Source: a virus
Virus record (IMG/VR): IMGVR_UViG_3300023176_005023
Location: 1-51,590 of that record
Strand: one strand, 5' to 3'
Length of the DNA: 51,590 bases
Within the stretch, counting starts at the first letter, position 1; each line of letters opens with the position of its first letter. The notes below the pieces were generated by a model. The model made no database searches, was not told where the DNA came from, and saw only the letters and a program-made list of their open reading frames with translations. This document shows positions 8,273-31,084 of the stretch, one piece after another. Position numbers and translations under genes: made by a program.

Positions 8273-8279
8273 TATTCAC

Positions 8280-8678
8280 CTATTCTGCTGGTGCGTCTGG
8301 ATCTGCGTCAGATTGCGCTGGTGCTTCTTCTGCTACTACCCAAGGAGGGTTACGATCTTCTTCTAAGCCATCGTCAATTTGTTTTTGAATTTGTTCATCA
8401 ATGTGAGCTTTATAGGCTGCATCTGCATCAATTACTGCATTGATCCAACCTACTACAGTAGCTTCTTCAAGATCTTCAAAAGCCACGAAAGAACCAGCAG
8501 GCACGTTTTCTGCTGTAAAAGGAGTTGCGCCTGAAAAGGTACCTTCGTTGCCGTCTGCATCCGTTCCTGTGCGTTTCCAATATGTTTGAACAACAGCGTT
8601 GCTTAGAGTAACGCCTTCGCTGTTTACCTGATCTCTAACCTTCAGGTTAGTAACAGTTGTGCTGTATGAGAAAGCCAT
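8280..8678 (-). CDS. Small conserved phage protein (family pair), acidic tail
   Basis: The protein has 132 residues, begins MAFSYSTTVTNLKVRDQVNS and is related to the 112-residue neighbour through YWKRTGTDADGNEGTFSG and ATVVGWINAVIDADA. It has an extra acidic, Ala/Pro-rich tail (APAQSDADPDAPAE). Function unknown; a virion accessory or chaperone role are both possible. GGAGATG provides the ribosome binding site. The 82-base gap upstream carries a perfect late promoter, so this gene begins a late transcript that likely continues into the sugar-related genes. Confidence 0.7.
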   Translation of the reverse strand: MAFSYSTTVTNLKVRDQVNSEGVTLSNAVVQTYWKRTGTDADGNEGTFSGATPFTAENVPAGSFVAFEDLEEATVVGWINAVIDADAAYKAHIDEQIQKQIDDGLEEDRNPPWVVAEEAPAQSDADPDAPAE

Positions 8679-10526: not shown

Positions 10527-10933
10527 TCATCTACAGATTCTAAAATCTCTTCTTTGTAATATTCATATATATCTGGCACCATACCAGTCATATCAACTTC
10601 ACCGATAGCATCAAGAATAGCATCATACGTATAACGATCTTCATCGTATGGAACAAAGTAAGGATCGTGCGGTAATAGTTCTGAGTCGTTTAATGTATCA
10701 TAGAAATCTTCTTCAAAATCATCACCAATCCATGTCGCATAACAAATCGCTACTACATAAGATTTAGATGGGTAGATCCATTCATCTACATATTCTTCGA
10801 AGTGGCGAACTGCTTCTGTAATAATATCCTCGCCTTCTACTAAATTAATTTCTACGTCTCTCAGATCATCTTTATATTCTGCATCTCCGTTGACCATACT
10901 GAAATATTGCTGCCTGATTTTCCATTCTTTCAT
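10523..10933 (-). CDS. Acidic protein of unknown function
   Basis: The 136-residue protein is strongly acidic and rich in Asp, Glu and Tyr (for example DDFEEDFYDTLNDSELLPHD and EDRYTYDAILDAIGEVD). I do not recognise a family. The first 35 residues (MKEWKIRQQYFSMVNGDAEY) are mixed, then VRHFEEYVDEWIYPSKSYVV suggests an alpha/beta fold. It overlaps both neighbours (1 base upstream, 4 bases downstream) and has GAGG before the ATG, so it is translated with the radical SAM/oxygenase group. An accessory or antirestriction-like acidic protein are both possible; nothing decides between them. Confidence 0.6.
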   Translation of the reverse strand: MKEWKIRQQYFSMVNGDAEYKDDLRDVEINLVEGEDIITEAVRHFEEYVDEWIYPSKSYVVAICYATWIGDDFEEDFYDTLNDSELLPHDPYFVPYDEDRYTYDAILDAIGEVDMTGMVPDIYEYYKEEILESVDE

Positions 10934-11679
10934 TATGCCTCGTATTCCTTTAGTAATTGTGCCTTATCACAAAAATCTAGATATGCACTGGTGACTTTAT
11001 AGTGATTATAGAAAAATAACTTCTTAATTCTTTCCCATATGTTTCTTTCTACCATTGGGTAACCAAACGTAAATACGATTGATTCGTAATGAGTATATTC
11101 ACGATTCATTTGAATATTCCAAAACTTGGTAAGATCCTCGTCGGTGTATGGTTTATCTCTCCTGTCTGCAATAGGAGAGTTAGCGAACGAGAAATCATCG
11201 TAAACTATATGTAGGTGTATTGCGTCAGACCACCAAGGTACTGGTTTCTTTGGCCTTTCGACTGTATTTATTGCGTTGTCATACCAGTAAATATCACAAC
11301 GAAGTTTATTCACTTCTTCTATAAATTCTTGCTTCTGCTCTTTTGTATTAAATACGACTCCTATATACCTGTGTCTGGAATCGTCGTGGCCTTGACAACT
11401 TGTGTATGTCAAGTAGCCTTTCTTATGTAACTCAAGTACTGCCCTCTTCACACCGGGCTCTAAATTTTTATCGATTATATCTGAGTACTGACTTACAAAT
11501 GTGCTTACATATTGCCCAAGATGATCTCGGAACATGTAAGTTCTTCCGTTGACGAGATGTAGATTACCTTTTTCAAACATAGCATAACGATGACCATCTT
11601 CTACACTTCGTAAATGAGGATCGTCTTTTCTGCTATATTCTTGTTGATACTGTACTCTATACTCGTACTGCGTCTTCAT
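10933..11679 (-). CDS. Unknown protein with a TSCQGH motif
   Basis: The protein has 248 residues and no confident family. A notable motif lies at about 86-108: LHKKGYLTYTSCQGHDDSRH followed by YIGVVF, in which a Cys and a His sit in a loop after a helix. SC(Q/E/S)G(H/R) motifs occur in several poorly characterised phage and plasmid proteins. The C-terminal half is rich in Tyr, Trp and His (HLHIVYDDFSF, FWNIQMNREYTHYES). It overlaps the preceding radical SAM gene by 23 bases and touches the acidic protein gene, placing it firmly in the modification operon. A metal-binding or substrate-handling role is a guess. Confidence 0.6.
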   Translation of the reverse strand: MKTQYEYRVQYQQEYSRKDDPHLRSVEDGHRYAMFEKGNLHLVNGRTYMFRDHLGQYVSTFVSQYSDIIDKNLEPGVKRAVLELHKKGYLTYTSCQGHDDSRHRYIGVVFNTKEQKQEFIEEVNKLRCDIYWYDNAINTVERPKKPVPWWSDAIHLHIVYDDFSFANSPIADRRDKPYTDEDLTKFWNIQMNREYTHYESIVFTFGYPMVERNIWERIKKLFFYNHYKVTSAYLDFCDKAQLLKEYEA

Positions 11680-12580
11680 TATACCATTCTAGTAGGTTGA
11701 AATAACCGTTGCAACCGTTTTGTTTTGGTGGGAATGCTACAAATTTGTAGTGCTCGGTTAAACACTTTCCAAAATATTTGCATTGCTTACATATATCTGA
11801 TACACCACTGTTCTTTTCTTTTATGGTCCATTGCTCATATTCTAGAAAGGATTCCAGTTCCGTAAAGCTTTCGTTACCAAGTAGGTCGAAATCCAATACA
11901 CCAAACTTGCCGCTAGGAGTAATATACACATGATCATCGCTAAAGGCGTTATAATTGCCATCTAAACATTCCTCTATCTTATCTTGATTTATGAATTGAA
12001 AGTTCTTCTCAATAGGACTATCAATCCATTTCATAATAAACTCTTCGTATTCAAGATCAGTAACATACTGCTTACGATGAGTTGTAGAGCTGAATGGTTT
12101 AATCTCTACAGCAATCAGATTGCCTAGAGTGTTAAACATATTAATCATATAGTCTACATCTTCATTTATAACATATTCTGATGCTAATGTCAATACCGAA
12201 AATGGTCTATTTAACTTAAGCATATTACCGAACACGATCATCTCTTTCTCGCGAGCACCAAAATCATATGATACAGATAGATCAATATCTTCTCTAAGAA
12301 ATGATTTACGTATTGCAGAAAGATTGGTAATAATCGAGATCGTACATTCGTATTTATCTTTGATTCTATCGATCAAATCATCTAAATATGTATCAGGTAG
12401 AATACCAATCTCACCACCATAAAGATCGATGTGTGTCACAGTAGGCTTAATCTCACTTAATCGTGCCATAATTGTGTCAATAGATGTAGTTGTTCTGTCA
12501 CGTAGTTGTTCTTTACTTAGATAGCAGAAATCACAATTAAAGTTACAAAAATAGGTAGGGTTAATCGATACTGAGAACAT
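11657..12580 (-). CDS. Radical SAM enzyme with short SPASM-like C-terminus (fifth of five)
   Basis: The protein starts MFSVSINPTYFCNFNCDFCY; C12, C16 and C19 form the CxxxCxxC [4Fe-4S] site that cleaves SAM. HIDLYGGEIG is the GGE motif that contacts the SAM amino group. The end holds CKQCKYFGKC (Cx2Cx5C) and a later GCNGYF, a reduced SPASM-type auxiliary cluster region. I start it at the ATG at 12580 because GAGGA lies 5 bases before it; another in-frame ATG at 12592 has no such site. SPASM proteins typically modify ribosomally made peptides or proteins. It overlaps the upstream radical SAM gene by 20 bases and the downstream gene by 23. Confidence 0.85.
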   Translation of the reverse strand: MFSVSINPTYFCNFNCDFCYLSKEQLRDRTTTSIDTIMARLSEIKPTVTHIDLYGGEIGILPDTYLDDLIDRIKDKYECTISIITNLSAIRKSFLREDIDLSVSYDFGAREKEMIVFGNMLKLNRPFSVLTLASEYVINEDVDYMINMFNTLGNLIAVEIKPFSSTTHRKQYVTDLEYEEFIMKWIDSPIEKNFQFINQDKIEECLDGNYNAFSDDHVYITPSGKFGVLDFDLLGNESFTELESFLEYEQWTIKEKNSGVSDICKQCKYFGKCLTEHYKFVAFPPKQNGCNGYFNLLEWYNEDAVRV

Positions 12581-13613
12581 CAATTTCCTCATTCACATAT
12601 GGGGTTACACTATTTGGATCTAACCCGTTAATTTCTAGAATACGAGGGGCAAGAGATTTCATATGTTTACAATGAGATTCTGCTTGCCCTTCTCGCTTCA
12701 TATCACGCACTGTCTTTTTACAGCCATTGCATATTTCAAACATGGGACAACTATAACAGGCTTGCTTTAATGTTTGAATATTAAAGTCATCTTGTAGTGG
12801 AGTGGAAAATCCTCCGTTTAACTCATGTTCAAAGGAGATAGGATAATCCCTATCATCACCAAAGGAACCACAAGAATAGTAATCGCCTCCAGGATTGAAG
12901 GCCCGTATGTGTTCGTCGCATCGACGATTTTGTGGACAACTTGTTGCATTACCTTTTAACCTCCGCATCATTTGCTTGGTATTATATTCCCACTTCCACA
13001 GACCTCGATCGTAAATTTCGATGTAAGTCTCATAAATCTTACTTAGTCTGTAAGTGGACCCTTGTATACCAGAGGCCATAGCATAATTGAGTTTGCATTC
13101 GACATCCATTTCCTTAGCAAGCTCAACATTACGAATAGCATCTGGTGCATCTTCATCAGTCATAACTGCAATAAAATCTGGACGATATCCAACAAGATCT
13201 AGCATCTTATTCGATGCCAACCAGAAATCTTTCTCTGTGAAGATTGTGTAATCGCCTTTTAAACGACCTTTACCATATTGGAAACTGGTACATATTCCTA
13301 GACGTGGGTGGCGAAACAAATCTATCCACTTCTCTGGCTTTACAACAAAAGGCCATAAATTGGTTGTGAAACTAATATTCGCAGGATAGTCATGCTCATC
13401 TAAATGATCTATAATCTTCCAATAATAACTAGGTTCCACCATCAAAGGGTCGCCACCATTTACGATAATGGTGCGAGTGTGAGGATACCTCTTTAAAAAT
13501 TTGAAAATATAATCATGATCCAAAAGCTTTGCTTTATTCGGATCAATATCTGTAGACGAACAGAAAGTACACTTAAAGTTGCAAGCTTCTGTCGGCTTTA
13601 TTATTAGTTCCAT
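12561..13613 (-). CDS. Radical SAM/SPASM enzyme (fourth of five)
   Basis: The 350-residue enzyme has ELIIKPTEACNFKCTFC at the N-terminus (C11, C15, C18: CxxxCxxC) and TIIVNGGDPLMVEPSYY as the GGE-like motif with Asp in place of Glu. The C-terminal third has the spaced cysteines of a SPASM domain: CPQNRRCDEH, YYSCGSF, CYSCPMFEICNGC and SHCKHM. These would hold one or two auxiliary [4Fe-4S] clusters. The family modifies peptide substrates or acts as an anaerobic sulfatase-maturase-type enzyme; the target here is unknown. The gene overlaps the upstream one by 41 bases and the downstream one by 20. Confidence 0.88.
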   Translation of the reverse strand: MELIIKPTEACNFKCTFCSSTDIDPNKAKLLDHDYIFKFLKRYPHTRTIIVNGGDPLMVEPSYYWKIIDHLDEHDYPANISFTTNLWPFVVKPEKWIDLFRHPRLGICTSFQYGKGRLKGDYTIFTEKDFWLASNKMLDLVGYRPDFIAVMTDEDAPDAIRNVELAKEMDVECKLNYAMASGIQGSTYRLSKIYETYIEIYDRGLWKWEYNTKQMMRRLKGNATSCPQNRRCDEHIRAFNPGGDYYSCGSFGDDRDYPISFEHELNGGFSTPLQDDFNIQTLKQACYSCPMFEICNGCKKTVRDMKREGQAESHCKHMKSLAPRILEINGLDPNSVTPYVNEEIDVLSID

Positions 13614-14634
13614 TCAATAATTCCATCATCAAAGTTTTAGGTGCAGGACAAACGTCACCTTGCCATTCAAGTTGGTGGCAGTCGGAGTGGCAATAGGCAA
13701 ATACCGGACACGAATAGCAACGTGGATCTCTTATGACTTGTTCGTCGATAATTACCTTTTGCCGCCCCTTGCTATTTATAACGTCTTCTACTGATTGTTT
13801 AATATTGCCATAATGATCGGTAGGAGCAGCGTTAGGGCAGCCAGCAATAGTACCATCCGCATTAATCGTAAATAATTTTTGTTCACAATCTCTGCAAAAC
13901 GTTCCTTGGTGTAAGAGTCCTTTTTCAAATTTGTTATAGACCGTTTCCATGAAGACATCTTCAAACTCCTCTCTTATATCATAACATTCCTCATATGCTC
14001 TCATAAAGAAATCTTGAAGTGCTGCATTCGTAGGATAAAGCTTTTCGCCATATAACAAAGCATTACCATTACCGGTAATACGTTCCCAAGATATTTCCGT
14101 GATGCCAAGACCTCTCAAATAATCAATCATTTCTCGAGGAGACCTATTGACAACGTCCTTAGATAATGATACAAATGCTTTAAGAATGAATCCTTGATCT
14201 ACTAAGAATCTTACGTTGTCTTCCCAAAGCTTTTCTTGCTTTTCATTTGCAAAGCGTATTGTTGGATCCCATGATGTTCCAATACGTTTACCTGTCATTA
14301 CACGAGAAAAGAAATCTAATCTATCATCTGTTAACTTATATGTAAGATTAGTTGTAATACCGAATGAACCTCTTACGCCCCATACGCTTTGTACTCTATT
14401 ATAGAATTCAAATAGATCTTCGGTTTTAGCAAGCATAGGCTCGCCACCGTGATATTCAAAGTGGCATATTTTTGTGCCATCATATAACTGATTAACCCAG
14501 TTAGCGGTAGCCACTGGGTCAAAGTATATTTTAGCTCCGTTGATTCCGCTTGTAAAGCAGTGGAAGCAATTTAAGTTACACGTCTCCGTGGTCTTGACGT
14601 ATACACTCAGATTGCTCTGTATCGGACAAACCAT
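13573..14634 (-). CDS. Radical SAM/SPASM enzyme (third of five)
   Basis: The 353-residue enzyme has YVKTTETCNLNCFHCFTSG with C19, C23 and C26, and HFEYHGGEPMLAKTEDLF as the GGEP motif. Its SPASM end is the most classical of the set: FCRDCEQKLFTINADGTIAG, then CPNAAPTDHYGNI, then CYSCPVFAYCHSDCHQLEW and VCPAPK. This order resembles anSME-like and peptide-modifying SPASM proteins. It overlaps the cupin gene by 59 bases, the longest overlap in the window, and the only ATG near the CxxxCxxC motif is the chosen one. AAGGA lies about 13 bases upstream, which is weak. Peptide modification is the most likely role by family. Confidence 0.88.
   Translation of the reverse strand: MVCPIQSNLSVYVKTTETCNLNCFHCFTSGINGAKIYFDPVATANWVNQLYDGTKICHFEYHGGEPMLAKTEDLFEFYNRVQSVWGVRGSFGITTNLTYKLTDDRLDFFSRVMTGKRIGTSWDPTIRFANEKQEKLWEDNVRFLVDQGFILKAFVSLSKDVVNRSPREMIDYLRGLGITEISWERITGNGNALLYGEKLYPTNAALQDFFMRAYEECYDIREEFEDVFMETVYNKFEKGLLHQGTFCRDCEQKLFTINADGTIAGCPNAAPTDHYGNIKQSVEDVINSKGRQKVIIDEQVIRDPRCYSCPVFAYCHSDCHQLEWQGDVCPAPKTLMMELLNGTNNKADRSLQL
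13773..13780 (-). promoter_or_regulatory. Possible T4-type late promoter inside a radical SAM gene
   Basis: A perfect TATAAATA on the minus strand about 160 bases before the ATG at 13613. The distance is longer than for the other copies, so chance is a real alternative. Confidence 0.25.
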
Positions 14635-15073
14635 AACTAAACATTAATCCTTCTCGTACATTCAATGCTCTGTGAGGAGTATCTGCGGGTATTTGCCAAA
14701 AGTCTCCCTCCTCAAGATTATGAATAACGTCGTTCACTTCAATTGTTTTATGACCAGCACTTACATGTAATAATACATCAACTGGGTCGGTATGTACACC
14801 AAAACTTGGCGATTCTTTCCAGTATCTAAAAGCATGAATGGTGCCTTCTTTAAAGCCACAAACGTGTTCGATACCTTCAACCTTTATTGTATCATTAGAT
14901 TCTGCAAGCTTTACTTGTACCTTTGCTAAGTACTCATTGTAGTCATCTGATACTATTTTAACATCTTTTCCACGATTGTCAATATATAATGTGCGATCAT
15001 ACATATAAGCTTCATGGCTTAGTACGTATTCTTCAAAGTCTTCGTAGGACCATTTTAAATTAGGCAGTTGCAT
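14576..15073 (-). CDS. Cupin protein with HxD...H triad, possible Fe(II) oxygenase
   Basis: The 165-residue protein is a single-domain cupin: SFGVHTDPVDVLLHVSAGHK forms the first motif and EEGDFWQIPADTPHRALNVR the second. H94-T-D96 and H134 are placed like the facial triad of cupin-fold 2-oxoglutarate oxygenases, so it may bind Fe(II); a sugar-binding or non-catalytic cupin is the alternative. It sits between two radical SAM genes (overlaps 59 and 14 bases) and is transcribed and probably translated with them. AAAGGAAC lies about 9 bases before the ATG. A role in the same modification pathway follows from position only. Confidence 0.75.
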   Translation of the reverse strand: MQLPNLKWSYEDFEEYVLSHEAYMYDRTLYIDNRGKDVKIVSDDYNEYLAKVQVKLAESNDTIKVEGIEHVCGFKEGTIHAFRYWKESPSFGVHTDPVDVLLHVSAGHKTIEVNDVIHNLEEGDFWQIPADTPHRALNVREGLMFSYGLSDTEQSECIRQDHGDV

Positions 15074-16976
15074 ACTCTAGTTCCTTTGTTTGAGTAGGCT
15101 GAGAAAATGCCCTTACAAAGAGTTCGTTAAGAAGAATGATTTCATTATCGTCTTGTGTGAGTTCCATGATGCATTCTAATCTAGATTTGTTGCCAATAAT
15201 TCTTTTCAATCCACGAGGTGGAGTGTCTGGATTCAAAATGTCTACAATATTTTCGTGCACTTCGTCAAAACCAGGAATACAATCACGAATTACAGCGTAA
15301 CACATTCTGCAAAACTCTGCTGGAGTAAGAACATCTTTAAATGTGTCATAATGCTTTTGCAAAAGAATATTACCACAAACATTCATAAACCACATCTCAT
15401 GAAATTCTTCGCGAGTAAATGAATAGCAAGATGCAATTGTTTTAAAGTAAGACTTTAGGCCACGATATAGACCATATCTATTATCAGCCCCGCCTTCTTC
15501 AATAACATCGGTATAGCATTCCACAACTTCAATATCATACTTTTTTATATATTCAGGATCTGTAAGTTCAGAATCTGGTAGGAACATATAGTCATGTCTC
15601 CATGAACCGTACGATTTAAAGTTATAGTAAATCTCATACTCATTATAGAAGTCATCTATAGTAGATCCAGGCATTCCTAGAATTAATTCTACGGGTGGCT
15701 TTGGATAACCTTCAACGTTGCAACGCTGATTAATATGGCGCGCGAGTGCTAACTTATCTTCTAAATTTAGATCAACTCTATTTACTACATCCATAGCTTC
15801 TTTACTAATACTTTGGATACTTACTGTTGGAACTACTGAGATATAAAGAGCTTCGCCTTCTGCTGCTTGCTTTCTTCTAATATCATCTTCCCAGTCTTCT
15901 CCATCTTGCTCACCAAAATTATCAACCATTCCACGGCTCGTATTCTGTTCATTGAATACGTGAATTGTGGTACCCATAGCCTGATTTTCTGCCGAGCCCA
16001 TAAAGAACAATGCATGAGAACCTTGCTCAGGTACAAACACTTCTGAGTGCTTCTCTTCGCCTGTTCCTAACGTGTCAAACCATGCATCAACAAGTTTCTT
16101 TCTTCTTGCAAGGTCTCTTGATTTAAAAGTTGAGATGTCGGTAAGATTAAATCCATTCTTAAAGGTCCAATCAAAGATCTCGATGTCTCTTTCTAAGAAT
16201 GCGCCGAAGTTTGCATCGGTAAGATAAGCATCTCGGAAGCCTGCGTCTTTCAAAGCCTCAACATCTCGCTTATAAATGTCTAGATCTTTCTTATAGATCT
16301 TAGTACCAATACCTCCGCCCCATTCACAGAATGCACACTTAAATGGACAGCCACGAGTAGATTCTAATGCCATGAATGGCTCAAGTACCTGAGTACGAGC
16401 CCACTCGCGCATTTCTTTAAGATAATCCATATGTTCTTCATAAACAGAATAATCTTGGTCTGCGATATTTAGAACACCTTTTTTATTTGAGCGCCATTCC
16501 CAAGTTACATCTTCATGTTTTGGCCATTGATTTAAATTATTAAAATATCCATCAAGCAGAGAGTTCATGAATATTTCGCCGGGCTTGGTTACCTGACAAA
16601 TATAATCATATAGTTCATATCTTAGATTCATTAGTTTTGGCTCGTTACGACCAATATGAGGTCCGCCGATTACTGTAATAGCTTCTGGGTTTTGCTCTCT
16701 TACGAGCTTAGCAACCTCATCGCACATCTGATAGTTCCAAATATATGAACTAAAGCAGTATACGTCAAGAGGTTCTCCCTGCTCCATATCTTCTTTAATT
16801 TCTTGGAAAGATCGATACACGTCAAATTTGTATGTTGCAGGAACAAACTCTACTTTATCGGGATACATTCCCTCATGTTTATAATGACTTTCTAACATCA
16901 TCCACGTCAAATTAGACGGCGTTTGCCAATCTGCATGAGGTGGTGACATGTAACCTAAACGTAATTTTTTACTCAT
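15060..16976 (-). CDS. B12-binding-type radical SAM protein (second of five)
   Basis: The 638-residue protein has an N-terminal Rossmann-like region (about 1-140) of the cobalamin-binding radical SAM type: KLRLGYMSPPHADW, PLDVYCFSSYIWNYQMCDEV and AITVIGGPHIGRNEPKLM. I see no DxHxxG base-off motif, which many members lack. The radical SAM core follows with MALESTRGCPFKCAFCEWGG (C210, C214, C217). Between the barrel parts there is an Asp/Glu-rich segment (about 320-385, containing NFGEQDGEDWEDD). VELILGMPGSTIDDFYNEYE is the usual late barrel motif. Such enzymes often methylate unactivated carbons or rearrange peptides and small molecules; the reaction here is unknown. It overlaps the upstream gene by ATGA. 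Confidence 0.85.
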   Translation of the reverse strand: MSKKLRLGYMSPPHADWQTPSNLTWMMLESHYKHEGMYPDKVEFVPATYKFDVYRSFQEIKEDMEQGEPLDVYCFSSYIWNYQMCDEVAKLVREQNPEAITVIGGPHIGRNEPKLMNLRYELYDYICQVTKPGEIFMNSLLDGYFNNLNQWPKHEDVTWEWRSNKKGVLNIADQDYSVYEEHMDYLKEMREWARTQVLEPFMALESTRGCPFKCAFCEWGGGIGTKIYKKDLDIYKRDVEALKDAGFRDAYLTDANFGAFLERDIEIFDWTFKNGFNLTDISTFKSRDLARRKKLVDAWFDTLGTGEEKHSEVFVPEQGSHALFFMGSAENQAMGTTIHVFNEQNTSRGMVDNFGEQDGEDWEDDIRRKQAAEGEALYISVVPTVSIQSISKEAMDVVNRVDLNLEDKLALARHINQRCNVEGYPKPPVELILGMPGSTIDDFYNEYEIYYNFKSYGSWRHDYMFLPDSELTDPEYIKKYDIEVVECYTDVIEEGGADNRYGLYRGLKSYFKTIASCYSFTREEFHEMWFMNVCGNILLQKHYDTFKDVLTPAEFCRMCYAVIRDCIPGFDEVHENIVDILNPDTPPRGLKRIIGNKSRLECIMELTQDDNEIILLNELFVRAFSQPTQTKELEYATA

Positions 16977-18082
16977 TTATCTCTCTTCGAATCCACATAT
17001 CTAAATAGTTCTTTGTTTATACACTCGTCCATGTCCTGCTTCATGTTTCCAGCTTTAATTCCTGAGAAACACATCATAGGACATCTTTGATAAAATTCGC
17101 ATGCATGACAATTATATTTATCAAGGAAACTCGTTAAAGTATTATCAAGAAAATTATCTGGTCCGTTATGTTGGCGATAAGAAGGCGAGTTAAACTTCTT
17201 CAAATAATGAGAGCCAACACATCCTTCTGGAATAATCTTATTGTCCCAATCAATAGCAGCACCATTACCACGAGAACATATCGTATGCATCTGATGGTCT
17301 TTTGGCTGCATAAAAGGTATAATATATTCTACTTTCGGATATTTGTCAACCAATAATTTATAAAATGCTAAAACTTCTGATTCTAAAGGTATCTCAACGT
17401 CGTTATGTTCTGTTCCTTTAATGTATTGATCCCAAGAATAATCAAATCTGCTATATAAGTAATCATAATATTCGTCACCTGCTAGTAAAGCTTGAATATT
17501 TTGTTTTGTAATCACTGAGTTAATATTACGAATATAAGGTGCAAAGATCTCAATATTCTCTTTAAATATCTGTAAGTTCTTTTGATTAAATCTACCTTTT
17601 AAATCAAACGATACAACGAATGTCGTATCCTCACCCTGCTCATCCATGAACCGTTTAATTTCATCTCTGGTCTCAACCATACTAAAATTAGAGATCCAAA
17701 TGAATTCTAGTACTTGATCTGTGAGATTTGTTTTTTCTCTCACTCCATTTGCAAGATCTCTATAGGCTTCTAGGAGATTAGAATCTTTTAGGATAGCGTC
17801 ATTAAATGGTTCACCACCAATCATTCGAACAACAAATTCTGTAGCAAAACTATTTTGATTAATATATTCAGCAATAATATCTGCTTTAGATACTATAGAC
17901 TCATAGTTCATACCTTTTTTACTATTATGATCTTGTGGGCAAAATGAACACGCAAAGTTGCAGTACTCAAAGAGTATTACAACAATCTCGCACGACTTAT
18001 TTCTTTTTTCGAAAATTAGATTTGCAGCGGTGTCAGAGCCCCACTTATCACCAGTCTCGGTGACATCAATCATATTAATCAT
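16973..18082 (-). CDS. Radical SAM/SPASM enzyme (first of five)
   Basis: The 369-residue enzyme begins with about 30 residues (MINMIDVTETGDKWGSDTAA) before EIVVILFEYCNFACSFCPQD, where C41, C45 and C48 form CxxxCxxC. FVVRMIGGEPFNDAILK is the GGEP motif. The C-terminus is SPASM-like: TICSRGNGAAIDWDNKIIPE, EGCVGSHYL, then CHACEFYQRCPMMCFSGIK and DECINKELF. It is the first radical SAM gene after the CHxS protein and the two unknown proteins. AAAGGT lies 5 bases before the ATG at 18082. A second in-frame ATG 9 bases later is less well placed. A peptide-modifying role is the family expectation. Confidence 0.87.
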   Translation of the reverse strand: MINMIDVTETGDKWGSDTAANLIFEKRNKSCEIVVILFEYCNFACSFCPQDHNSKKGMNYESIVSKADIIAEYINQNSFATEFVVRMIGGEPFNDAILKDSNLLEAYRDLANGVREKTNLTDQVLEFIWISNFSMVETRDEIKRFMDEQGEDTTFVVSFDLKGRFNQKNLQIFKENIEIFAPYIRNINSVITKQNIQALLAGDEYYDYLYSRFDYSWDQYIKGTEHNDVEIPLESEVLAFYKLLVDKYPKVEYIIPFMQPKDHQMHTICSRGNGAAIDWDNKIIPEGCVGSHYLKKFNSPSYRQHNGPDNFLDNTLTSFLDKYNCHACEFYQRCPMMCFSGIKAGNMKQDMDECINKELFRYVDSKRDK

Positions 18083-18094: not shown

Positions 18095-19267
18095 TTACGT
18101 ATGGCTGAATTTATTTAACTGAGTTGTATTTTCTGCAATTTTTAATTGATAAAGATACTCAATCCAAAATGTATTTATTTTTTCCTGCATATATTCATAG
18201 TGCCAAACTTTAGTAGTTCCCTGATAAGTAATATCATCTGCAATAATATCTTCCCAAGCTGTATCTCTTATTTCTGTGTTAGATAAGTTTGTTCCATCTA
18301 TTCTATTAAGCATTCCTTCAGCACCTTTAATAACATCCTGAAGCTCGACGTCGTTAGCATCGTCTGCGTTTGTATTATCTACAACCCATTGAAGCCATCC
18401 CAAGCCTACATCCCAATGCGCAACACGGTATTCCCAGTTTTCTACAAGGGCGTCGTAGGATCTGTCAAAAAGAAAATCCATATCAGAATTCGCAGCTCTA
18501 AGTGAAGTCATCCAGTTTGGATCGGTCCAGTTCAATGTTACGCCAGTCATAGAGCGAACTTTTTCTGTCATAATATTATCTCTAATATATTCTCTTAGAT
18601 CACTAACAATTCCAAAGCCAATTTTTGAATGTATTCTTTGACCTTTTATTGCAATGGGAGTTATTGTAATGTCACCACACAAATATGCTGCGAGCTGAAT
18701 CTCAATACACAAACTGTCTCTTAAAGCGTCTCGAACAGACGTATAATAAGAAGCCTCAACAGTATCTGCCGTATTAAATGCATTATATGCGGTTGCGAAT
18801 TCTGATTGAGTATACACTGCTTCTGCCATTGCGTCAGCAACTCTAATAGCAGAAAAAGATCTGCTTGACATATTATCAACTTCTACAAGTTTTTCTCTTT
18901 GTCTTGTTATATTATAGAGTATAAAAGCAGCGTCAACATCTATATTTGGCATTGCTACTTTAAGCCAAGCAAAGAACAATTTATGATATGATTCAGCGTC
19001 TGCATATATTCTTCCAGACCAATCATTATCATATAAAGATTTAATAAAGTGAGCATATGATTCGTGCTGGCCCTCATCGCTTCCAATAATATCATCTATT
19101 GAAGCTGTCCAATGAAGTATTTCAGTTCCATAGCCAGGACTTGCAAGAGTACTCATATTAGTATATTGATGCTGATTTCTTTCAACAGAAAATACAGCTC
19201 TATCCTGAGAGTTATCATAAGCCCAGTCTGGAGAAACATATACTTTATCAAATAGGTTAAACGACAT
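18095..19267 (-). CDS. Unrecognised 390-residue protein in the modification locus
   Basis: I do not recognise this protein. It begins MSFNLFDKVYVSPDWAYDNS, has a compact N-terminal segment with ASPGYGTEILHWTASIDDII and SDEGQHESYAHFIKSLYDND, and becomes helical with many Trp and Asp residues after residue 130 (for example WEYRVAHWDVGLGWLQWVVD). There is no signal peptide, membrane segment or nucleotide-binding motif. It overlaps the 365-residue gene by 11 bases and lies 12 bases from the first radical SAM gene. The position between the CHxS protein and the enzymes makes a substrate-handling, chaperone or scaffold role worth testing; that is inference. Confidence 0.65.
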   Translation of the reverse strand: MSFNLFDKVYVSPDWAYDNSQDRAVFSVERNQHQYTNMSTLASPGYGTEILHWTASIDDIIGSDEGQHESYAHFIKSLYDNDWSGRIYADAESYHKLFFAWLKVAMPNIDVDAAFILYNITRQREKLVEVDNMSSRSFSAIRVADAMAEAVYTQSEFATAYNAFNTADTVEASYYTSVRDALRDSLCIEIQLAAYLCGDITITPIAIKGQRIHSKIGFGIVSDLREYIRDNIMTEKVRSMTGVTLNWTDPNWMTSLRAANSDMDFLFDRSYDALVENWEYRVAHWDVGLGWLQWVVDNTNADDANDVELQDVIKGAEGMLNRIDGTNLSNTEIRDTAWEDIIADDITYQGTTKVWHYEYMQEKINTFWIEYLYQLKIAENTTQLNKFSHT

Positions 19268-20354
19268 TCTTTTTTAATTCCTCTGGTATACATTCGTCCC
19301 ATTTGCCAGCCGCAATTACTTTTGTTTGTACACAAAGAGTGTTTGCTTCTGTATCAAAGTACGAAAACATGTTTCTTCCTTTAAATCTATATTCATTAAA
19401 TTGATTCGTGAAAATCTTTCCTTTTCTATCTCCAATAGATCCTATATAATATCCAATCCAAGGCAGAGCATACGTATTAACAAAGTTAATTCCTACATAG
19501 TCTGGATCATCTACCTCTTCAAATGTTTTTTCAACAAAATCGTTAAACTCAGGAATATTTAAACATTGAAAATTAAAGATTGGAGATGAGTCTAACATCT
19601 CACACCATCTTTTTACAATATCTAAATTCTCTTCAATAAAATCTTCTGCATTATTTAGTCTTTCAAAGTACATGTAAGGTGCTAGTGGATCATCACAAAA
19701 TTCATCAATTTCTTCTTGATCAACAGTAGGAATATTAGTTCCAAACTCATACATTGGTTTCAGCACTTTCATATATTGACAACAAACCGCCAATGCTTCT
19801 CTTGCTAACTGCTCAATATCAACCAAAGCTGTTGTTGTGCTCATGTAAGCAGCAACTAATTCTTTTAAAGCATCTCTATCATTATAAGTTTCTTCATCAA
19901 AATCTGCATCTAGATTCAAGTTACTTAGATAGATCATCAAAGCATTTGCGTCTAGTTTACCAGCTCTATAGTTAATCTTAAAAGCAGTATTCTCTTTATC
20001 CTGAAAGTACTCTTTTAAAACCTCCATAGGTAAAGGACAGCTTGTTTCAATAATCTTTTTTGGTTTTAAAGCCTGTTTTTTCTTAAGATCTTCTACACTT
20101 TCTTGTACATCGTCATTATAAGAGTTGTCTCGGATAACCGCTTGAATCTCTTTACTTACTTGCTCTTTAGAAGATTTTTTAGGTTTAATATCATCAGCGT
20201 TTTCTTCTACGAATTTAAGCACTTCTTCCTTTGTAATGCCTACATTTTTTAAAGCATTCCAAGAAGTAATAGAAAGATCTTGGTTTCTTTCCCATTCAGA
20301 TTTTAGAGTTTCAAGTTTTAATCCGGCTTTTTCAATTTTTTCTACAAGATTCAT
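19257..20354 (-). CDS. Unrecognised 365-residue acidic helical protein next to the CHxS gene
   Basis: No family recognised. Residues 1-105 are charged and helical, perhaps coiled coil (VEKIEKAGLKLETLKSEWER, KSSKEQVSKEIQAVI), followed by a Lys-rich linker (DLKKKQALKPKKI). Residues 105-300 are acidic and helical with scattered cysteines (AREALAVCCQYMKVL, CDDPLAPYMYFERLNNAED). The end has GRNMFSYFDTEANTLCVQTK. AAGGAA precedes the ATG, and the gene begins 12 bases after the stop of the CHxS protein, so the two are likely co-expressed. An adaptor that presents the CHxS tail to the radical SAM enzymes is one idea; nothing in the sequence proves it. Confidence 0.65.
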   Translation of the reverse strand: MNLVEKIEKAGLKLETLKSEWERNQDLSITSWNALKNVGITKEEVLKFVEENADDIKPKKSSKEQVSKEIQAVIRDNSYNDDVQESVEDLKKKQALKPKKIIETSCPLPMEVLKEYFQDKENTAFKINYRAGKLDANALMIYLSNLNLDADFDEETYNDRDALKELVAAYMSTTTALVDIEQLAREALAVCCQYMKVLKPMYEFGTNIPTVDQEEIDEFCDDPLAPYMYFERLNNAEDFIEENLDIVKRWCEMLDSSPIFNFQCLNIPEFNDFVEKTFEEVDDPDYVGINFVNTYALPWIGYYIGSIGDRKGKIFTNQFNEYRFKGRNMFSYFDTEANTLCVQTKVIAAGKWDECIPEELKKNVV

Positions 20355-20366: not shown

Positions 20367-20942
20367 TTATCTTCTTCCTCTAGAACTGTGACAACTTGTA
20401 TGACAGCTATTGTGACAATACGTAATATCAAAGTCTGCTCTATTATCTTTTAATGTATCCCATGCATTAAATAAATTAGTGCAAAGGTTATTAAAATCAG
20501 CAGCGTGCGCAACTTCATCTTCTGTAACACCACCACTGTTAACTAATGTCATAGTTTGTCTTTGCCCAGTATCACGGACAGTAATACCGTCAGCAGATCC
20601 TCTCTCTGTCACTGTGCCACCATCATTCTGGCGAAGCCATCTCACCTTACACTGGCGTATGTTAGTGAGGTTTCCAGTTGCCGCAGTAAGATGTAAATAA
20701 ACCTTCACCGCTTCAATAGTCGTACCATCATCACCAATTCCAGTGACTGTTACATCAGAGCTTGGATTATCTGCAGCATAATTAGCGTCTGGAGCTACCT
20801 GCCCATCATCTACGCCTGTAGTCGGTGTGTGTTTTGCTGTAGAATGATACACGATTGTATTGTGGGCTGGAGTTTCCACCGCATCAATAAATGCCTGTCT
20901 CGCTGCTGAATTTTCTATTAAATCGCCTGCTGTTACCGCCAT
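20367..20942 (-). CDS. Virion-like protein with a C-terminal (CHxS)3-RGRR tail: candidate modified substrate
   Basis: The 191-residue protein has a body (1-170) that reads like a small phage structural protein: Thr/Gly/Asp-rich, beta-type, with DVTVTGIGDDGTTIEAVKVY and CKVRWLRQNDGGTVTERGS. It then ends YCHNSCHTSCHSSRGRR (175-191): three perfect C-H-x-S units (C176-S187) plus a basic RGRR. There is no signal peptide. The ATG overlaps the stop of the giant fibre as TAATG, and a TATAAATA lies 65 bases upstream within that fibre, so it can be expressed with or without it. The gene is followed directly by two unknown proteins and then five radical SAM enzymes. Bacterial Hxs systems pair a His-Xaa-Ser-repeat peptide (HxsA) with two radical SAM enzymes; this looks like a phage analogue. 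Other readings are a metal site or a CX3CH heme-type site. Confidence 0.8.
   Translation of the reverse strand: MAVTAGDLIENSAARQAFIDAVETPAHNTIVYHSTAKHTPTTGVDDGQVAPDANYAADNPSSDVTVTGIGDDGTTIEAVKVYLHLTAATGNLTNIRQCKVRWLRQNDGGTVTERGSADGITVRDTGQRQTMTLVNSGGVTEDEVAHAADFNNLCTNLFNAWDTLKDNRADFDITYCHNSCHTSCHSSRGRR
20382..20417 (-). repeat. Coding tandem repeat (Cys-His-Xaa-Ser)x3
   Basis: Three consecutive 12-base units encode CHNS, CHTS and CHSS (codons TGT CAC/CAT N AGC/AGT/TCT). The codons vary at synonymous positions (CAC/CAT, AGC/AGT/TCT), so the repeat is kept at the protein level rather than being a fresh DNA duplication. Confidence 0.95.
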
Positions 20943-23900
20943 TAGACTTTCACCTCCACTATTCCATTTTCACTATTGCTCAATGCGATACCAATGATTT
21001 CATGACTATTTATACCGGGCGTGCCGTATGGAACTCCCTTACACTTACCAACAGCTTCTGGATCTGGAATCAACCACATACCTTTTTTAACATCACCAGA
21101 TACGAATGCTGGAATACGACCTTTTAGAGCAATAAATGGATTCATTTTAGCTTTTTTAGATTTGTCATTTTCAATGCCCATATCGTTCATTCTAACGCCA
21201 GGTTCTGTAGATATAACACCAACCATTGGTAAACCTTCGCGCCATACTGTAATTTCAGCATCACCATCTAGATCAATACCCATTAGAGTGCCTGGCTCAT
21301 AGATATCATCTGCAGAATATCTTTCCGCAAGGTCAGCCCAGCGAGCGCTTGTTGCAGTACCATTATAAACACCATCATTATCAACGTGAGCTTTATCACT
21401 TCCATCTCTACGGAACTGACAAATACGGTTTGAGTTACCACCGCCAACAATATAGAAACGATCTGAGTGATATTCAATCTTACCTCTATCGTTACCTGGA
21501 TCTCCTGTCCATTGAACGTCAGGTTCGTTGAAACGCATGCCTGGAGAATATCCATCTCTGTGAGTCATGCGGAACATCCATTCTCCGCCTGAGTTTAAGA
21601 AACCTTGCCACAACGAATCACTAGAACTATCACCTTCACCATGAATCCAGAAACGACTTCTACCGTCAAATGTAGCCAAACCACGAAGGTTCATTGCGCT
21701 GTCATTATTGTTACCAGTCATTCTCCATTCTTGGGAATTCGTAGCATAGAAGTCTGTACCATTAGCGTCATTGCGCAAGCCGCGGCCGTCACTATCGTTC
21801 CGATACCAACCGTCGTTATCAATATTACCTCTAATATCAAGGCTGTTCATGCGTGATGTGCCGGCTGGGTTCGTATAATAGAAAGTGTTGTTTCTATCAT
21901 AGAAAATCGGTGCACGCATCGAAGTGTAGGATTGGCTGTTCCCGCTGTTATCTACATAGAAACGTGTAGATTGGGCGTCTTCGTCCCAAACCACAAACAC
22001 GTTTTCATCTGCAGCACCACCAACCATAACGCCGTCATCGGTAATTTTAATAAAACCAACATCAGAACTATATCCAGTTTGAAGAATAAGACCATATCCA
22101 TCTAGGCCGTAGTTGTAAACTGTTGAGTTTGTGTTTGGAGTTCCTCGTGTAGTTCTGTCACCGTAGAAAATATAACCTTCGTAAGTGTAACTCCCGCCAG
22201 TATCAACAAACGATATTTTTCCATTTAATGATAATTCATTTAGCTTTGTAGTACTTGCTGGATCTGCATAGTAGCCTGAATCATTTCTATCATAGTAAAT
22301 GTCGCCGTAGACAGAGCCACGAAGATATGAAGTACCATTGATATCGAGAGTATAAGCAGGACCAGATGTCGTAGATCCACCAAAGCCAGAGCTTATTCTT
22401 CTTGCTACTGTAAGATCACCGTTTGTTGTAAGTGACATAGCACCTTGAGCTGTAGTATGACCCGTGTCACCCCACCAGAAACCACGATCATCCTCATCAT
22501 TGAACTGGAATGTCATAGCCCAGTCATTCAGAGCACCAAACGTAACATCTGATTGCATACCAATGGCATAAGATGAGCTACTATAAACACGAATTTTATC
22601 ACGAGTAGAGTTTGCAGGACCAACAAGCCTGTCGAAATCCATTGTGGAAATATTTGAATTTCCGTTCGGATTTATATAGTAATTAGTGTCGTTACTATCA
22701 TAGAAGATAGGTGCACGGTAGTCACTAGAAGCTTGTCCAGTACCTCTAATATAAGAACCGATTTGTTCCCAACCATTAACAGAACCAGCTTCACAAGTAC
22801 GCATCCATGCTGAGCCAACTGATCCCGTGTAGTTAGATCTTGGATATGCTACTTCTAACCAGTAATCAGAGCTACCATAGTTCAATCCGTATTCTTGTCC
22901 AAGAGATGTTCTTACACGATACCACTGACTTGAACCTGTGTTAGGCGCGTTTGTATTACCTTGTACATAACTCCAACCCCAGTGATTAACTGCAGCATTA
23001 AAGTCAGTATATGTGTTGTGATTGTACCATTGACCAAACTGACCAACTGCAGAAACACCTTGTGTAGCAGATCCTCCAGACCCAGTAACACTATTAAAGC
23101 GAAGAACATTTAATCTTGTAGTACCAGCAAAGTCGCCGTAATAGTTCGTATCATTTTTATCATAGTAGATAGGAATATATGCAGCCCCTGTTGCATAAAC
23201 TCTACCATTAGAACCATCTAGACCAACTCTTGCATCACCATCTGCTGCAACGTATAGACCCCATCCACCAAGAACACTATTGATACCATCGTAATTGGCA
23301 TTCGGGTGTGAATAACCAATACCGTACATATTTTCCAAGTTACCATCGGTTGGGTTGTAGTTCGAACCGATTGTGTAAATTGGGTTTGTTTTGGTTGAGT
23401 TGGCGCCGATATTATTATATGAACCAACTAGGTGGCCTCGAGAGTGGCCTGGTCTATAGCGATAATCAACGTTAGTACCGTTCATTCTAGACGTAGAGTT
23501 ACCATCAAAGAAGTAACTGGTATTACTCTGATCGTAGAATACAGTACCTCGTACATCGCCTTGAGCAGTAATATTACCGAAGTAAGATCTCATGTTGTAT
23601 GGACTACCGCCAGCAACTGAACCTAGCGTTCCACGGAAACCTTGACCTGAAAGAATTGTATTTGTAGAATCTGCTGGACTACCTGGCTCAACTTTTGTGC
23701 TGCCGTCATTAGTAGTAATACCATCCTGGCGAATCCATCTCCACCATAACTGCGAATCCCAAGTACAGCCATTCATTCTCAACCATAGATATCTATTGTT
23801 GTCAATTCTAACTTCTGGAGTAATACTATCGTTTGGATAATTTGTCTGATGGCCGACTGACATTGTCGAGTTGTTCCAAGAAGAAACAACCACAGTACCT

Positions 23901-26900
23901 TTTACAAAGCCTGAATAGTTTACATCATCCTTTGCGTAATATTCAAGAATACCTTTCGCCCCGCCGGTGTTTGTACGGCCAACGCGGATCCAATAATAAC
24001 GAGTTCCATTGGTTGAGTCATAAACATATGTACTTGTGTTATACCACCTACCGGTCCAAGGTTGGTTTTGCGAATAACCACCAACTGTTAAACCGTTAAG
24101 GTTAGATGTGCCTGCCGGATCAACATAATATGAGGTATTATCATTATCATACATGCTGTCAGCAAACAAGATGTTCTCAACGCGTACGTTATCGTCGCCT
24201 TTACCTACTGAGAAGATCTCAGATCCACCGCCGGCGTCTCTTCTTGAGTCATTGTAGAATCGTGTACCACCGTATGATTTGTTAGCTCCGATTTGAATAC
24301 CAGTATGCCAGTTCAAGCGAAGCTTAGAGTAATCACCACCGTAATTCTCCTTATCAACATAGATCATGTAGTAAGGTTGGCTATCGGATCTCTGACCCCA
24401 TGAAATGCCTGTTACACCCCCGTCAGCTTGAGACGGATCTGATGTAGAATCCCAAAGATTGAGGTGACGACCTGGACCAGTAGAGCTACCGTCTCTAAGT
24501 AGGAACCCACCGCCGAGCTCTTCGTATCTGTCAGAACGGAAAGCATCTGCCGCCTGGACTGTGTTTAGATTAGATGTACTTGCCGGATCAAGATAGTAAT
24601 TTGTATCATTTGTGTCGTAGAATATTGGAGCTCTAACAGATGCGTTATGATAGAACTGAGCAGAATCCATCTCGCCCATAAGAGTTCTACCATAGTGCAT
24701 AAATCTTAGTTTACCGCCACTTGCTCCTGATGTAGTTTTATTACCAGAAATACCGGCGTATTCACGGTATGTGCCACCATTATCTTTTAATCTAAAGTAA
24801 AAACCTGCACCAACAGAAGAACTACTATTATCATGGTTTGCACGAGCCAAACGAAGAACGCCATAATCTACTGAGTTGCTATTTGTTCCAGTATCTTGAA
24901 TCATATCAAATGTTACCGGCCCTCCAGTAGTTTGAGAGCGGAAATTGGCCGTACTGGTGCCGGTATTGAAATACAAGGAGTTGCTGCTGTACAACCTAAT
25001 GTTAGACATTCTCGATTCGCTAGCAAAGTTGCCATAATATGAAGTATTATTTGAATCGTAATAGATCGGAGATCTCATATTGGATGATGCATAAGCCTCA
25101 CCGCCAACATGGAAAGTATATGAGGGGCTTGTGGCATTAATACCAACTCTACCATTGTACATCCATGTCATAAGCTCGGTGCCGCTAGAAGTAAAGTCAG
25201 CACCAAACAAACTGCCACTATTAAATCTCAGGAACATGTTACCAGTAAATTTGTCATCCATACCAAACATGAATGATGAGTCGCCAGTACTGCTTCCTCC
25301 AGTTAGATCGCTGAATTCAATGCCAACGTCACCGTTGTAATTCATAAATCTCATGCGGCCTTCGTTGTTGGCATCACCCAACATATCCATCCAAACTTCT
25401 GTGCCGTTGTTATCAAGCCTAACTCTACCAGCAAGGCGCATTGCCTCACCGGTGCTGTTTGGATTTATATAATAAGATGTGTTATTAATATCATAGAAGA
25501 TAGGAGCGCGCATATCGCCTCTGGCTTGCAGAGAACCACCATTTGTTGCTCTAAATTGATACTGCTGAGCTCCACCAGTAGTTGCAGTAAACTGTAGATT
25601 ACCGCCTGAGTTTGTAGTTAGATCATCTGGCGATTCATAAATTCTCCAGTCAGTACCACCTTTCCAACGAATACCTTCGTTAGGACCCGGATCATTAAAC
25701 GCTATATCGTTCAGGTTATCAATGGTACCATTATTCCAGTTCCATGAACCTTCAACACTACCGCCAGTAGCTGGGTTCATGTATCTTGCAGTATTATCAC
25801 GATCACGGAAGTTGCTTGCATCAACAGTATTCATCTTAGATGTTGAAGCAGGATTTACATAAAAGTTATTGTCATTGCTGTCATAGAAGATAGGCGCATA
25901 AAGGTTACCTGAGAATCTTGCTTCTTGGGCATCGATGTTTGAAAGATAGTTTGTACGTCTTACAATCGGAGGACCAAATTCGCGAACAGCACCAGAACCT
26001 GCATAGTTCATCAATACGATAACACGAATATATTTACATCCACCGCCGTCAGAACCGTTAAATGGTGAATGCGACGTTGGAATTGTATGATGGGCTTTAT
26101 ATGTAGTCCAACCCGTGCTTGTTACATTTGCAGCAGAAGCTACAAAATATGTGATACCATCGTTACCTGCAATAGGGTTCTTATCTTTATCGTATCTACG
26201 TACACCCATATAAAGATAACGAGTACCACCAGAGTCAGAACCACTTACAAGTCTAGCCGAGATCTCACCGTAGATCTCCATGCCAGGCTCAACTGCGATA
26301 TAGTCAGAGTCGAATGTTCTGTAACCACTTGTTCTTAGAGCATATGAAGCCTCAAAAGGACCGTCATTATTTTTGACGAAATCAGCAGTTGAAGTTGTAG
26401 CAGAGTCTTCTGCTCCTTGCATAACCTGAATAACACGTTTTTCCCAATATTCAGTACCGTCGAATATAACAGTATCGGCTTTACCGGAACCATATGCTTT
26501 AATAAGGCTAAGATCTTCATTACCGCCGTTAAGAGCAATGTTAGCAAAACGGCCAGTACCGTATGCTTGGAAATCACCATTTTCTTCAAACCAGAATCTA
26601 TCACCGATAGAATTAAAGTGAACAATAAAGTTCGAACGATTGTTTCTGTCGTCATGGACCAACCAAGGATAGTTAGCATCAGCTGCACTATTTTTAAACG
26701 CAGCCAAATAACGGTTAGCGTGATGGATCTTAAATGGATACGTGCTGTCAGTAGAAATTCTAGCTTGGTCACCAACCGAGATAGACTTCATTCTAGAGTC
26801 TGATGCAAAGTCTCCCCAGTATGCAGTGTCTGCGCTATCATAGTAGATAGGAGCACGCATTTGGTTATTAGCAAGTAGATAACCATTTCCGGTTTCAGCT

Positions 26901-29900
26901 TGCTTTGTACCGTTGTACATAATTTCTGTTTGAGCATTATCATACCAACGAGTCATCCACTCATTGCGAGTATCGTTGTAGATACCAGCATTCACGTTTC
27001 CATCTGACATGAATACCCAATCATCTTGGATAGCATAACCTGCCCATCCACCTTTAGCGCCACCAACTCTAATAGAGCCGTAGTCACCAGAAGGTGAATC
27101 TATAATGTATGTAGAGCCATCAATTTGATACTGATTAGCTCTTTGTACGTTGTGAAGAGATGTGCCGGCTTGATCAGTATAATATGCAGTATTGTTTCTA
27201 TCGTAGTATCTTGTAGCATATGCTTCGTTTTGTACATATAATCTACCACGGTTATCAGTACCTCTGAGGTTACCAACATACCAAGCACCCGTAGAACTAA
27301 CACCACCATTATATTGAAGAGCTCCAGTAGAAGCAGTTGTATAGAAACCAATACCGGAATCTTCGTTTGTTTTACCAGTACCAGTACGGAAGTCTTCTGC
27401 TGTAATCATTGCTACAGTATCAGCATCTGTACCACTAATACCTGACGCACTTACCCCTGAAGCACCAGTTACTTTAAACTGAAGTTGACCATACATGTCG
27501 CCCGGTGAAGTAGCGTTACTTGGAGCAGAATTAATTTCCAACTTAGTTGGAGTATTTGCGCCGGCAGCATTAGCTGTTCCGCCTGTAACTTGGAATGTTT
27601 GATGAGAGTATGTTCTACCTGAAGCAATTTGAATTCTGTTACCGGCGCTTCCAGCTCTACGAAGATTTAAGTCTTCATTATAACTATGAACTTCACCAGT
27701 GTCAACAGTAATTCCTTTATTAAAATAGAATTTATCACGGTCTGTTTGAATATGAGCCCACGACGTGTTCATCGGACCGAAGTCAATGTAACCGGAAGGA
27801 GTACTCAGCCTCCAACCATTTGCTACACCCTGAGGTTCAAACGTGTAAGAAGTGTTTGCTCTGTCAACAAGCTTATGAGTACGAAGTTCATTGATAACAT
27901 CAACATAAGTTGTATAGATGTTCATCTCTTCGTTGCCACCTGCAGAGAAACCAATTGTATCTGCTGCTTTGCGATACATACCTGTGTTTGTATCAGATAC
28001 AAATGAGTATGTTGGTGAACCTAGTTGACCGTTTCCGCCAAGAACTTCACCTGCAATTTTAAGAGCAACATCTGTATTAGCAGGATCTAGATAGTAAGTC
28101 GTGTCGTCCTTATCTACGAATCTTGTTGCTTCGATGTCATTATTAGCTTGGAACTTAACGCTGTTACTTACTTTAAGGTAAGAAGCATTGTCCATATACA
28201 AACCGCTTCCAGAACCGAACGCAAGTTCATCTTGTGTCAATATAGTTGAATTAGAAGTTCCAACCACAAAGCCATCGGCCGCACCATTAACTATAACCGA
28301 GCCATCTACGTGTAATTTGTTACCATTGACTGCACCAGTTACGAGTGTAGCATTATCATGAGAAGCATTTGTAGCGCTATCGTTATTGACAATTACGTCA
28401 CCGCTGTTTAGAATTGCAAACTTACCACTTGCTCCACTATCATAGAAATACCAATCTTTATCTTGATCACTGATAAAGTAAGCATGTTGTTGAGAACTAC
28501 CACGAATACTGAAATCTACTTGTGCAGCTTCTCCAAAGTTAATTAATCTGTTAGCATCTGCAAATGGATTGCTACCCATTTGGCCTGTTGTTCTTACAGA
28601 TAGTCTTGCTGCTGGAGCATTATCACCAATACCAACGTTACCTCTGGTTGCGCTAGCAAGAGATATATTTAAGTTGCTTGTTGCCTTCGTGGAAAGAGAA
28701 CCTAAAGACAACATATCGTCGTCAGCTAACATGTAGCCAGTAGCGAACGATCCGCCTTGATCTAGAATAATACCAATGCGCTGATCGGTAGATGTAAGTC
28801 TAATATAATCACTAGTTCCGGTGTTTACTTCAAACTGATATATGTGAGAATTAGTGCCGATACCAACGTGACCGTCATCGTTAATGTTAACAGCCTCAAT
28901 GCCATTAGAGTAAATGCTGAAATTATCAGGTGCACTCCATCCCAAATAACTATTAGTATCTCCATTGTGGAAAAGATAATCATCTAATCCTAATGAATGA
29001 AATACTGAGTCGTCAGCAGGATTTGCATAATAAGTAGTGTTGTCTCTGTCATAGAAGTAAGATGCTCTAATACCACCGGATGGTGTAACATCTACATAAG
29101 TATTTCTTACATCTAATCTTAGTGCTCCGTTTGTTGAAATGCCAACTCTGTCTGCGCCTGGAGTGTACAAGCCGGTATTTGTATCAGATCCAAATGAATA
29201 CGTTGGAAGAGCTGCAGTTCCGCTAGCACCTCTTGCTTGCCCAGCAAAAGATAATGAAACTCCAGTATCACCGAAGTTTGCATAATAAGAATTATTATCA
29301 GAGTCATAATAAGCAGGAGCATAAACATTTTGAGTAAAGTCCGCAGAATCGCTATCAATATTTACTCGCTCGCCGCCACCTGTATAGATTTTAAATACGT
29401 TATCCGCTGAGAAACCAAAGTATGATGTTGTATTACCACGATGACGAATAAAATCATCTAAGTCGATACGTTGCATCTCAGATATACCGGCAGGATTTGT
29501 AAAGTATGCAGTATCATTTGCATCTACAAATCTTGGAGCAACTAGATCTGTGCCAACAGTAACTGCAGAAGCAGTCGTCGTGAATACAGTGTTACCACCT
29601 GCCGTTAGAGTAATTTGGTTATCGGTAAATTCTAGATAGGTGTCTGTATCACCATTGTGAAGCAATCTATCATCGATGCCTACTCTGTTCATTACAGACG
29701 TTGCAGCGAAATCACCATAATAAGCTTGGTTGTCGTTATCGTAATATGTCGGTGAATACATCGCATTGACTGCTGTCACACCGTTATTGTTAACAACAAG
29801 TCTTTGGGAGTTACCAGTTCTAACTTCTAAAGAGTCAGCAGCATTAAAATTAATGAAGGTGTCTGCGTCGCCGTCTGCAATGATTTGACCGTACAACTCG

Positions 29901-31042: not shown

Positions 31043-31084
31043 TCGGTTCACTCTCCCCAGTTTGGCGTATATTCTGCTTTGATA

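Follow-up and report, generated by a model that had tools for sequence, protein, structure and literature searches.

Introduction

In precursors of cross-linked RiPPs, the modified motif is found at the C-terminus or close to it. One of the closest known counterparts of the locus reported here is the His-Xaa-Ser system (HxsA/HxsB/HxsC; TIGR03977, TIGR03978), a prediction of Haft and Basu to which PMC9062424 refers. The two have in common His-x-Ser repeats and more than one radical SAM (rSAM) enzyme encoded nearby. Among viruses, rSAM genes have been noted before in marine T4-like and jumbo phages (PMC5332604, PMC7029224, PMC8066314, PMC11898562). They form cassettes in the host-recognition clusters of pelagimyophages (PMC7029224), number 12 in one T4-like TARA genome (PMC5332604), and are carried by FLC6-type phages alongside cupin and 2OG genes (PMC8066314, PMC11898562). 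The passages of PMC7029224 and PMC5332604 that deal with rSAM genes name neither a substrate nor a tail, and the corresponding passages on FLC6-type phages name no substrate.

Here, we analyse a phage protein that ends in Cys-His-Xaa-Ser (CHxS) repeats and is encoded beside several rSAM genes. No published description of such a tail system was found in open-access papers without their supplements, and a description elsewhere is not excluded.

Results

The CHxS protein and its gene cassette

The window, a 51,590-base IMG/VR virus record analysed over its whole length, contains on the minus strand an ORF that starts with ATG at position 20942 and ends with a stop codon at 20367–20369. Its translation (20367–20942) bears out the first-pass annotation, which had placed three CHxS repeats plus RGRR at the exact C-terminus of a 191-residue protein. 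The C-terminus is YCHNSCHTSCHSSRGRR, the last residues before the stop are DFDITYCHNSCHTSCHSSRGRR, and the tail itself, CHNS-CHTS-CHSS-RGRR, occupies 16 codons (20370–20417, minus strand). AlphaFold2 predicted an alpha/beta body (pLDDT 79, pTM 0.76) and gave the tail low confidence (about 55), with no confident fold on its own. When the body model was compared with the PDB using Foldseek, no convincing structural relative was found; the matches were Atu_ph07 gp170 and other uncharacterised phage proteins. Three long proteins of Myoviridae sp. ctijX18 (BFVD A0A8S5USJ7, A0A8S5USJ8 and A0A8S5USV2) also resemble the model in Foldseek. The body is phrog_35144-like, and phrog_35144, of unknown function, matches 47 of 49 type I relatives (layouts are described below). 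Together with Atu_ph07 gp170, FLC6 gp72, SURPRISE13_072 and DT01 PA10_00065, this family comprises tail-bearing homologues whose annotations go no further than hypothetical or unknown function.

Directly upstream of the CHxS gene lies the gene for a giant tail-fibre-like protein of 3369 aa (20942–31051, minus strand), which we treat as context and not as a cassette enzyme. The cassette follows the CHxS gene on the same strand. It begins with two genes of unknown function, p2 (19257–20354; 365 aa, phrog_20767-like) and p5 (18095–19267; 390 aa). These are followed by radical SAM B (16973–18082; 369 aa), a B12-binding radical SAM protein (15060–16976; 638 aa), a cupin (14576–15073; 165 aa), radical SAM/SPASM A (13573–14634; 353 aa), radical SAM C (12561–13613; 350 aa) and radical SAM D (11657–12592; 311 aa), so that the rSAM cluster proposed to lie just downstream is indeed there in the direction of transcription. 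The cassette closes with p4, also unknown (10523–10933; 136 aa), and three 2OG-Fe(II) oxygenases (10023–10526, PF13640; 9323–10018 and 8761–9354, both PF13759). rSAM A carries a CxxxCxxC motif and SPASM cysteines, conserved motifs that it shares with known peptide- and protein-modifying enzymes. No PqqD domain (RiPP recognition element) was matched among the window proteins scanned with Pfam. A structure model of p2 had no match in the PDB, and conservation in the p2 alignment was too low for a scan of the collection.

Beyond the oxygenases, two DUF7936 proteins in tandem adjoin them at 7934–8678. A block at 4873–7908 (4873–5625, 5622–6863 and 6865–7908) recurs near a few other cassettes, and its gene at 4873–5625 encodes a cytidylyltransferase fused to a mannose-6-phosphate isomerase/cupin domain.

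Comparison with named radical SAM systems

The phage tail differs from the repeats of the His-Xaa-Ser system in that its unit is a CHxS tetrad with an invariant Cys and usually an RGRR end, and the cassette differs in being phage-encoded, fibre-linked and equipped with a cupin and 2OG oxygenases. NCBIfam, including the HxsA substrate model, gave no match for any of 49 CHxS proteins (E<=0.01). The window rSAM proteins reached at best 30.7 bits against 370 for HxsB (TIGR03978) and 24.8 against 267.9 for HxsC (TIGR03977). The His-Xaa-Ser system, put forward in the first-pass annotation as the closest comparison, therefore stands as an analogue but not as a family to which this locus belongs.

rSAM A, C and D match models of SPASM maturases (DarE, DynA, PapB, GrrM/OscB) below threshold, and no window rSAM protein reaches the cut-off of any of the equivalog models listed, among them those for HxsB/HxsC, viperin and the named RiPP maturase families. 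Unlike the substrates of SPASM RiPP maturases, the candidate substrate here is a larger folded phage protein and not a short precursor, and the CHxS cassette has no identified exporter or peptidase. A relation of rSAM D to prokaryotic viperin, a defence protein (NF038283), was rejected at 41.5 bits against a cut-off of 180. The pelagimyophage and TARA cassettes (PMC7029224, PMC5332604) may be of the same kind as the CHxS cassette and lie in the same genome region.

An invariant tail on diverging bodies

A DNA pattern encoding CHxSRGRR followed by TAA, expected by chance about 0.1 times per 10^10 bases, matched 101 IMG/VR stretches, far above chance. Nearly all of these matches are in-frame ORF C-termini ending in (CHxS)3RGRR, and the two upstream CHxS units, which were absent from the search pattern, are also present in nearly all. 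Among the exceptions, L075 looks like a chance match and a few are cut by the contig end. The standard form, (CHx[S/N])2-CHxS-RGRR, is represented by 82 distinct 48-nt tails. All of them (82/82) keep Cys and His in each of the three units; the Ser position is rarely Asn, and the x position is variable. For most of these tails the search pattern itself dictated the last CHxS unit and RGRR, while the first two units were free to vary. Cys is encoded by TGT or TGC, His by CAT or CAC, and Ser by both AGY and TCN. The synonymous codon variation remarked on earlier in the window's tail is thus strong across the family, with the amino acids fixed. Mean pairwise identity is 84% in the tail, compared to 20% in the body.

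A second pattern without RGRR matched at least 119 stretches. At loci new to this pattern, most in-frame matches end in (CHxS)3R[G/S/A]RR, and the rest include clear chance matches. Two viral contigs of 240–250 kb carry tails expanded to 13 and 14 CHxS units with NVPV or VV spacers (L407:7832–8515 and L408:7956–8660, respectively), and in both the expanded-tail gene directly adjoins rSAM A. A 504 kb viral contig encodes a four-unit tail that ends in CHGSSGGW without RGRR, with rSAM-like genes nearby (L381:560–1141). In a divergent cassette (L438:8571–9128), the tail reads CHSSCHSSCHGDCRRSKR, and three rSAM-like genes whose CxxxCxxC contexts differ lie nearby. The endings of the L373 and L438 tails differ again from RGRR and from that of L381. 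Because of these RGRR-free and expanded tails in L407, L408, L381, L373 and L438, the CHxS array is the constant element, and RGRR is common and nearly constant but not essential.

A CGN-coded version of the tail pattern gave 22 matches, two of which are real tails (L444 and L401). In bacterial and archaeal genome contigs there were 14 pattern matches, about ten of them with an in-frame tail. These lie mostly on MAG contigs, which may themselves be phage-derived. Three Streptococcus mitis matches and one other were rejected, as they are not C-terminal tails.

Co-occurrence of the tail with radical SAM genes

PF04055 was found in all 50 CHxS contigs (30–190 kb), with a median of 5 matches. Among 25 viral contigs chosen as controls by a related tail sheath, only 4 had an rSAM gene, with one match each, and none contained a CHxS triplet. 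The contrast in rSAM presence between 50/50 CHxS contigs and 4/25 control contigs is pronounced (Fisher p = 6e-15), with the reservations that each set contains contigs related to one another and that the control contigs (16–164 kb) are partly shorter. The expectation that neighbours of (CHxS) tails encode rSAM enzymes was accordingly borne out, and none of the 50 large contigs kept the same tail without an rSAM gene, the outcome that had been named in advance as refuting the reading of the tail as an rSAM substrate.

Gene maps were drawn for the 50 contigs and five cultured-phage regions, with 55 loci mappable in all, the window included. The rSAM genes at these loci sort into subfamilies A, B, C, D and others. 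A syntenic cassette emerged in which the main rSAM cluster is present at 53 loci and the CHxS family at 51. p2 and rSAM B are each found at 51 loci, rSAM D at 43, the cupin at 42, rSAM A and p4 at 41 each, rSAM C at 36, p5 at 34 and the B12-binding rSAM family at 10. In the type I layout there is one CHxS protein of about 140–300 aa (two in one case), usually with rSAM A directly before it and p2 directly after it. In the type II layout there are usually two tandem CHxS proteins of about 125–140 aa and a second rSAM group.

Starting from the enzyme, an rSAM A profile recovered 373 relatives in IMG/VR. From these relatives, 34 contigs that did not belong to the first pattern set were chosen, and the tail is present in 17. 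The pattern found 16 of these, and the remaining one is L208, whose tail, CHASCHNNCHVSRGRR, was not caught by the DNA pattern. The other 17 contigs end before the expected tail position. Two of these truncated contigs were read gene by gene; for the other 15, the judgement relied on how far rSAM A lies from the contig end and on the layout of relatives, which is weaker evidence.

Genomic setting and cultured phages

In the window and at most type II loci, the CHxS gene is directly 3' of a giant fibre gene, and the window genes at 31098–51428 are tail-fibre- and virion-protein-like. On the contig that carries the L208 cassette, neck, sheath-stabiliser and terminase genes come next (L285). The position is between fibre genes and neck/sheath genes.

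When queried against 50,697 phage records, window rSAM A, C and D each matched exactly the same seven: Burkholderia phages FLC6, FLC8 and SURPRISE13, Agrobacterium phage Atu_ph07 (two records), Sinorhizobium phage Phosso and Pseudomonas phage DT01. In all five loci that were read (FLC6, SURPRISE13, Atu_ph07, Phosso and DT01), a tail-bearing protein is encoded next to the rSAM genes, the tails being VCHSSCHTSCHGSRGRR in SURPRISE13 and FLC6, FCHSSCHASCHNSRSRR in Atu_ph07, YCHTSCHASCHSSRSRR in Phosso and ICHTSCHTSCHSARGRR in DT01. For FLC8, outside these five loci, the evidence is a 100% match to the CHxS protein of FLC6. Searches of named phages by tblastn with the whole CHxS ORF or the bare tail returned nothing useful, because of the divergence of the bodies and, probably, low-complexity masking of the tail, a difficulty that the rSAM queries got around. 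A type II CHxS query likewise matched no named phage.

In Atu_ph07, a virion-protein cluster was defined as CDS 170–215 by ESI-MS/MS (PMC6102473). The CHxS gene is CDS 170, the first gene of that cluster, and CDS and gp numbering agree, since gp215 denotes the major head protein in each. This suggests that gp170 is present in virions, an inference from the cluster boundary only and not a proof. Calculated for the unmodified form, the C-terminal tryptic peptide of Atu_ph07 gp170 (YP_009611835), NMWYQSANVTASIGVDFCHSSCHASCHNSR, has a monoisotopic mass of 3311.375, and those of SURPRISE13, DDLQVELTVCHSSCHTSCHGSR, and DT01, AQVLTLQNTICHTSCHTSCHSAR, have masses of 2413.021 and 2510.158, respectively.

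Discussion

We conclude that the CHxS ORF is probably the substrate of a phage-encoded, RiPP-like rSAM/oxygenase pathway whose product is part of the tail fibre or baseplate, the chemistry and the presence in virions being inferred. This conclusion is supported by the invariant tail on diverged bodies, by repeat expansion, and by the close co-occurrence and synteny of the tail with the rSAM, cupin, 2OG, p2, p5 and p4 genes. The locus also has what is expected of a RiPP-like pathway, namely genes next to that of the candidate substrate for rSAM enzymes carrying CxxxCxxC and SPASM cysteines, and a conserved core against a variable remainder, with variation in repeat number.

Such a pathway would have as its target the C-terminus of a folded protein about 120–300 aa long. 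The cassette enzymes would recognise the body, and rSAM/SPASM A and its partners would install cross-links or other changes on Cys, His and Ser, Cys thioethers or His-x-Ser side-chain links being possible examples. In RiPP chemistry, which serves here only as an analogy, Cys is able to form thioethers, and the H-x-S spacing resembles three-residue cyclophane motifs. The 2OG oxygenases and the cupin may then make further changes to the tail. The location of the gene in the tail-fibre/host-recognition block leads us to infer that the product is a component of the tail fibre or baseplate tip. There, a Cys/His tip that is chemically stiffened or binds metal could help in receptor binding or penetration. 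All evidence for the enzyme–substrate relation is associative, no modified residue has been observed, and a neighbouring fibre protein could be the target instead.

The tail might also do its work unmodified, with Zn or Fe bound, or disulfides formed, at a fibre or spike tip while the rSAM enzymes act on something else nearby. Phage spike proteins do have metal-binding apices, and a Cys/His-rich segment at the extreme C-terminus, without a confident predicted fold and encoded in the tail-fibre block, would suit such a role. We nevertheless find this unlikely, as it leaves unexplained both the strict co-occurrence of tail and rSAM genes and the usual placement of the CHxS gene between cassette genes.

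Similarly unlikely is the proposal that the cassette modifies the giant fibre, a glycan or a small molecule, with the CHxS protein in an accessory role, whether as carrier, as chaperone or as donor of Fe-S or metal to the rSAM enzymes. Linkage extends to fibre genes and to p2/p5 as well, many rSAM enzymes require a supply of Fe-S, and one paper reads phage rSAM genes as part of Fe-S metabolism (PMC5332604). However, an invariant tail on a diverging body, its repeat expansion and its extreme C-terminal place look substrate-like, and the CHxS gene opens the Atu_ph07 virion cluster. Mere hitch-hiking of CHxS and rSAM genes in a shared hypervariable host-recognition region, without joint function, would fit the cassette gain and loss reported for this region (PMC7029224), but it is barely tenable given the same gene order across very diverged phages, including Agrobacterium, Sinorhizobium, Burkholderia and Pseudomonas jumbo phages, with no tail lacking rSAM in 50 contigs and no tail in 25 controls.

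If the CHxS protein is the substrate, this would explain why there are several rSAM enzymes per phage. A conserved candidate substrate turns phage rSAM genes into one testable biosynthetic system, present in cultured phages, and the (CHxS)n tail together with rSAM A provides a marker for the cassette in other viromes. With less assurance, we lean towards the view that a widespread class of tailed phages builds a covalently cross-linked or otherwise radical-modified Cys-His-Ser tip on a tail-fibre or baseplate protein by means of its own multi-enzyme rSAM/2OG pathway. To our knowledge, such a pathway would be the first case of a phage encoding radical SAM maturation of a protein that forms part of the virion. 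A modified tail would mean that unusual enzyme chemistry acts on a folded protein, and it would offer peptide-modifying enzymes and possibly a new principle for phage adhesion or penetration.
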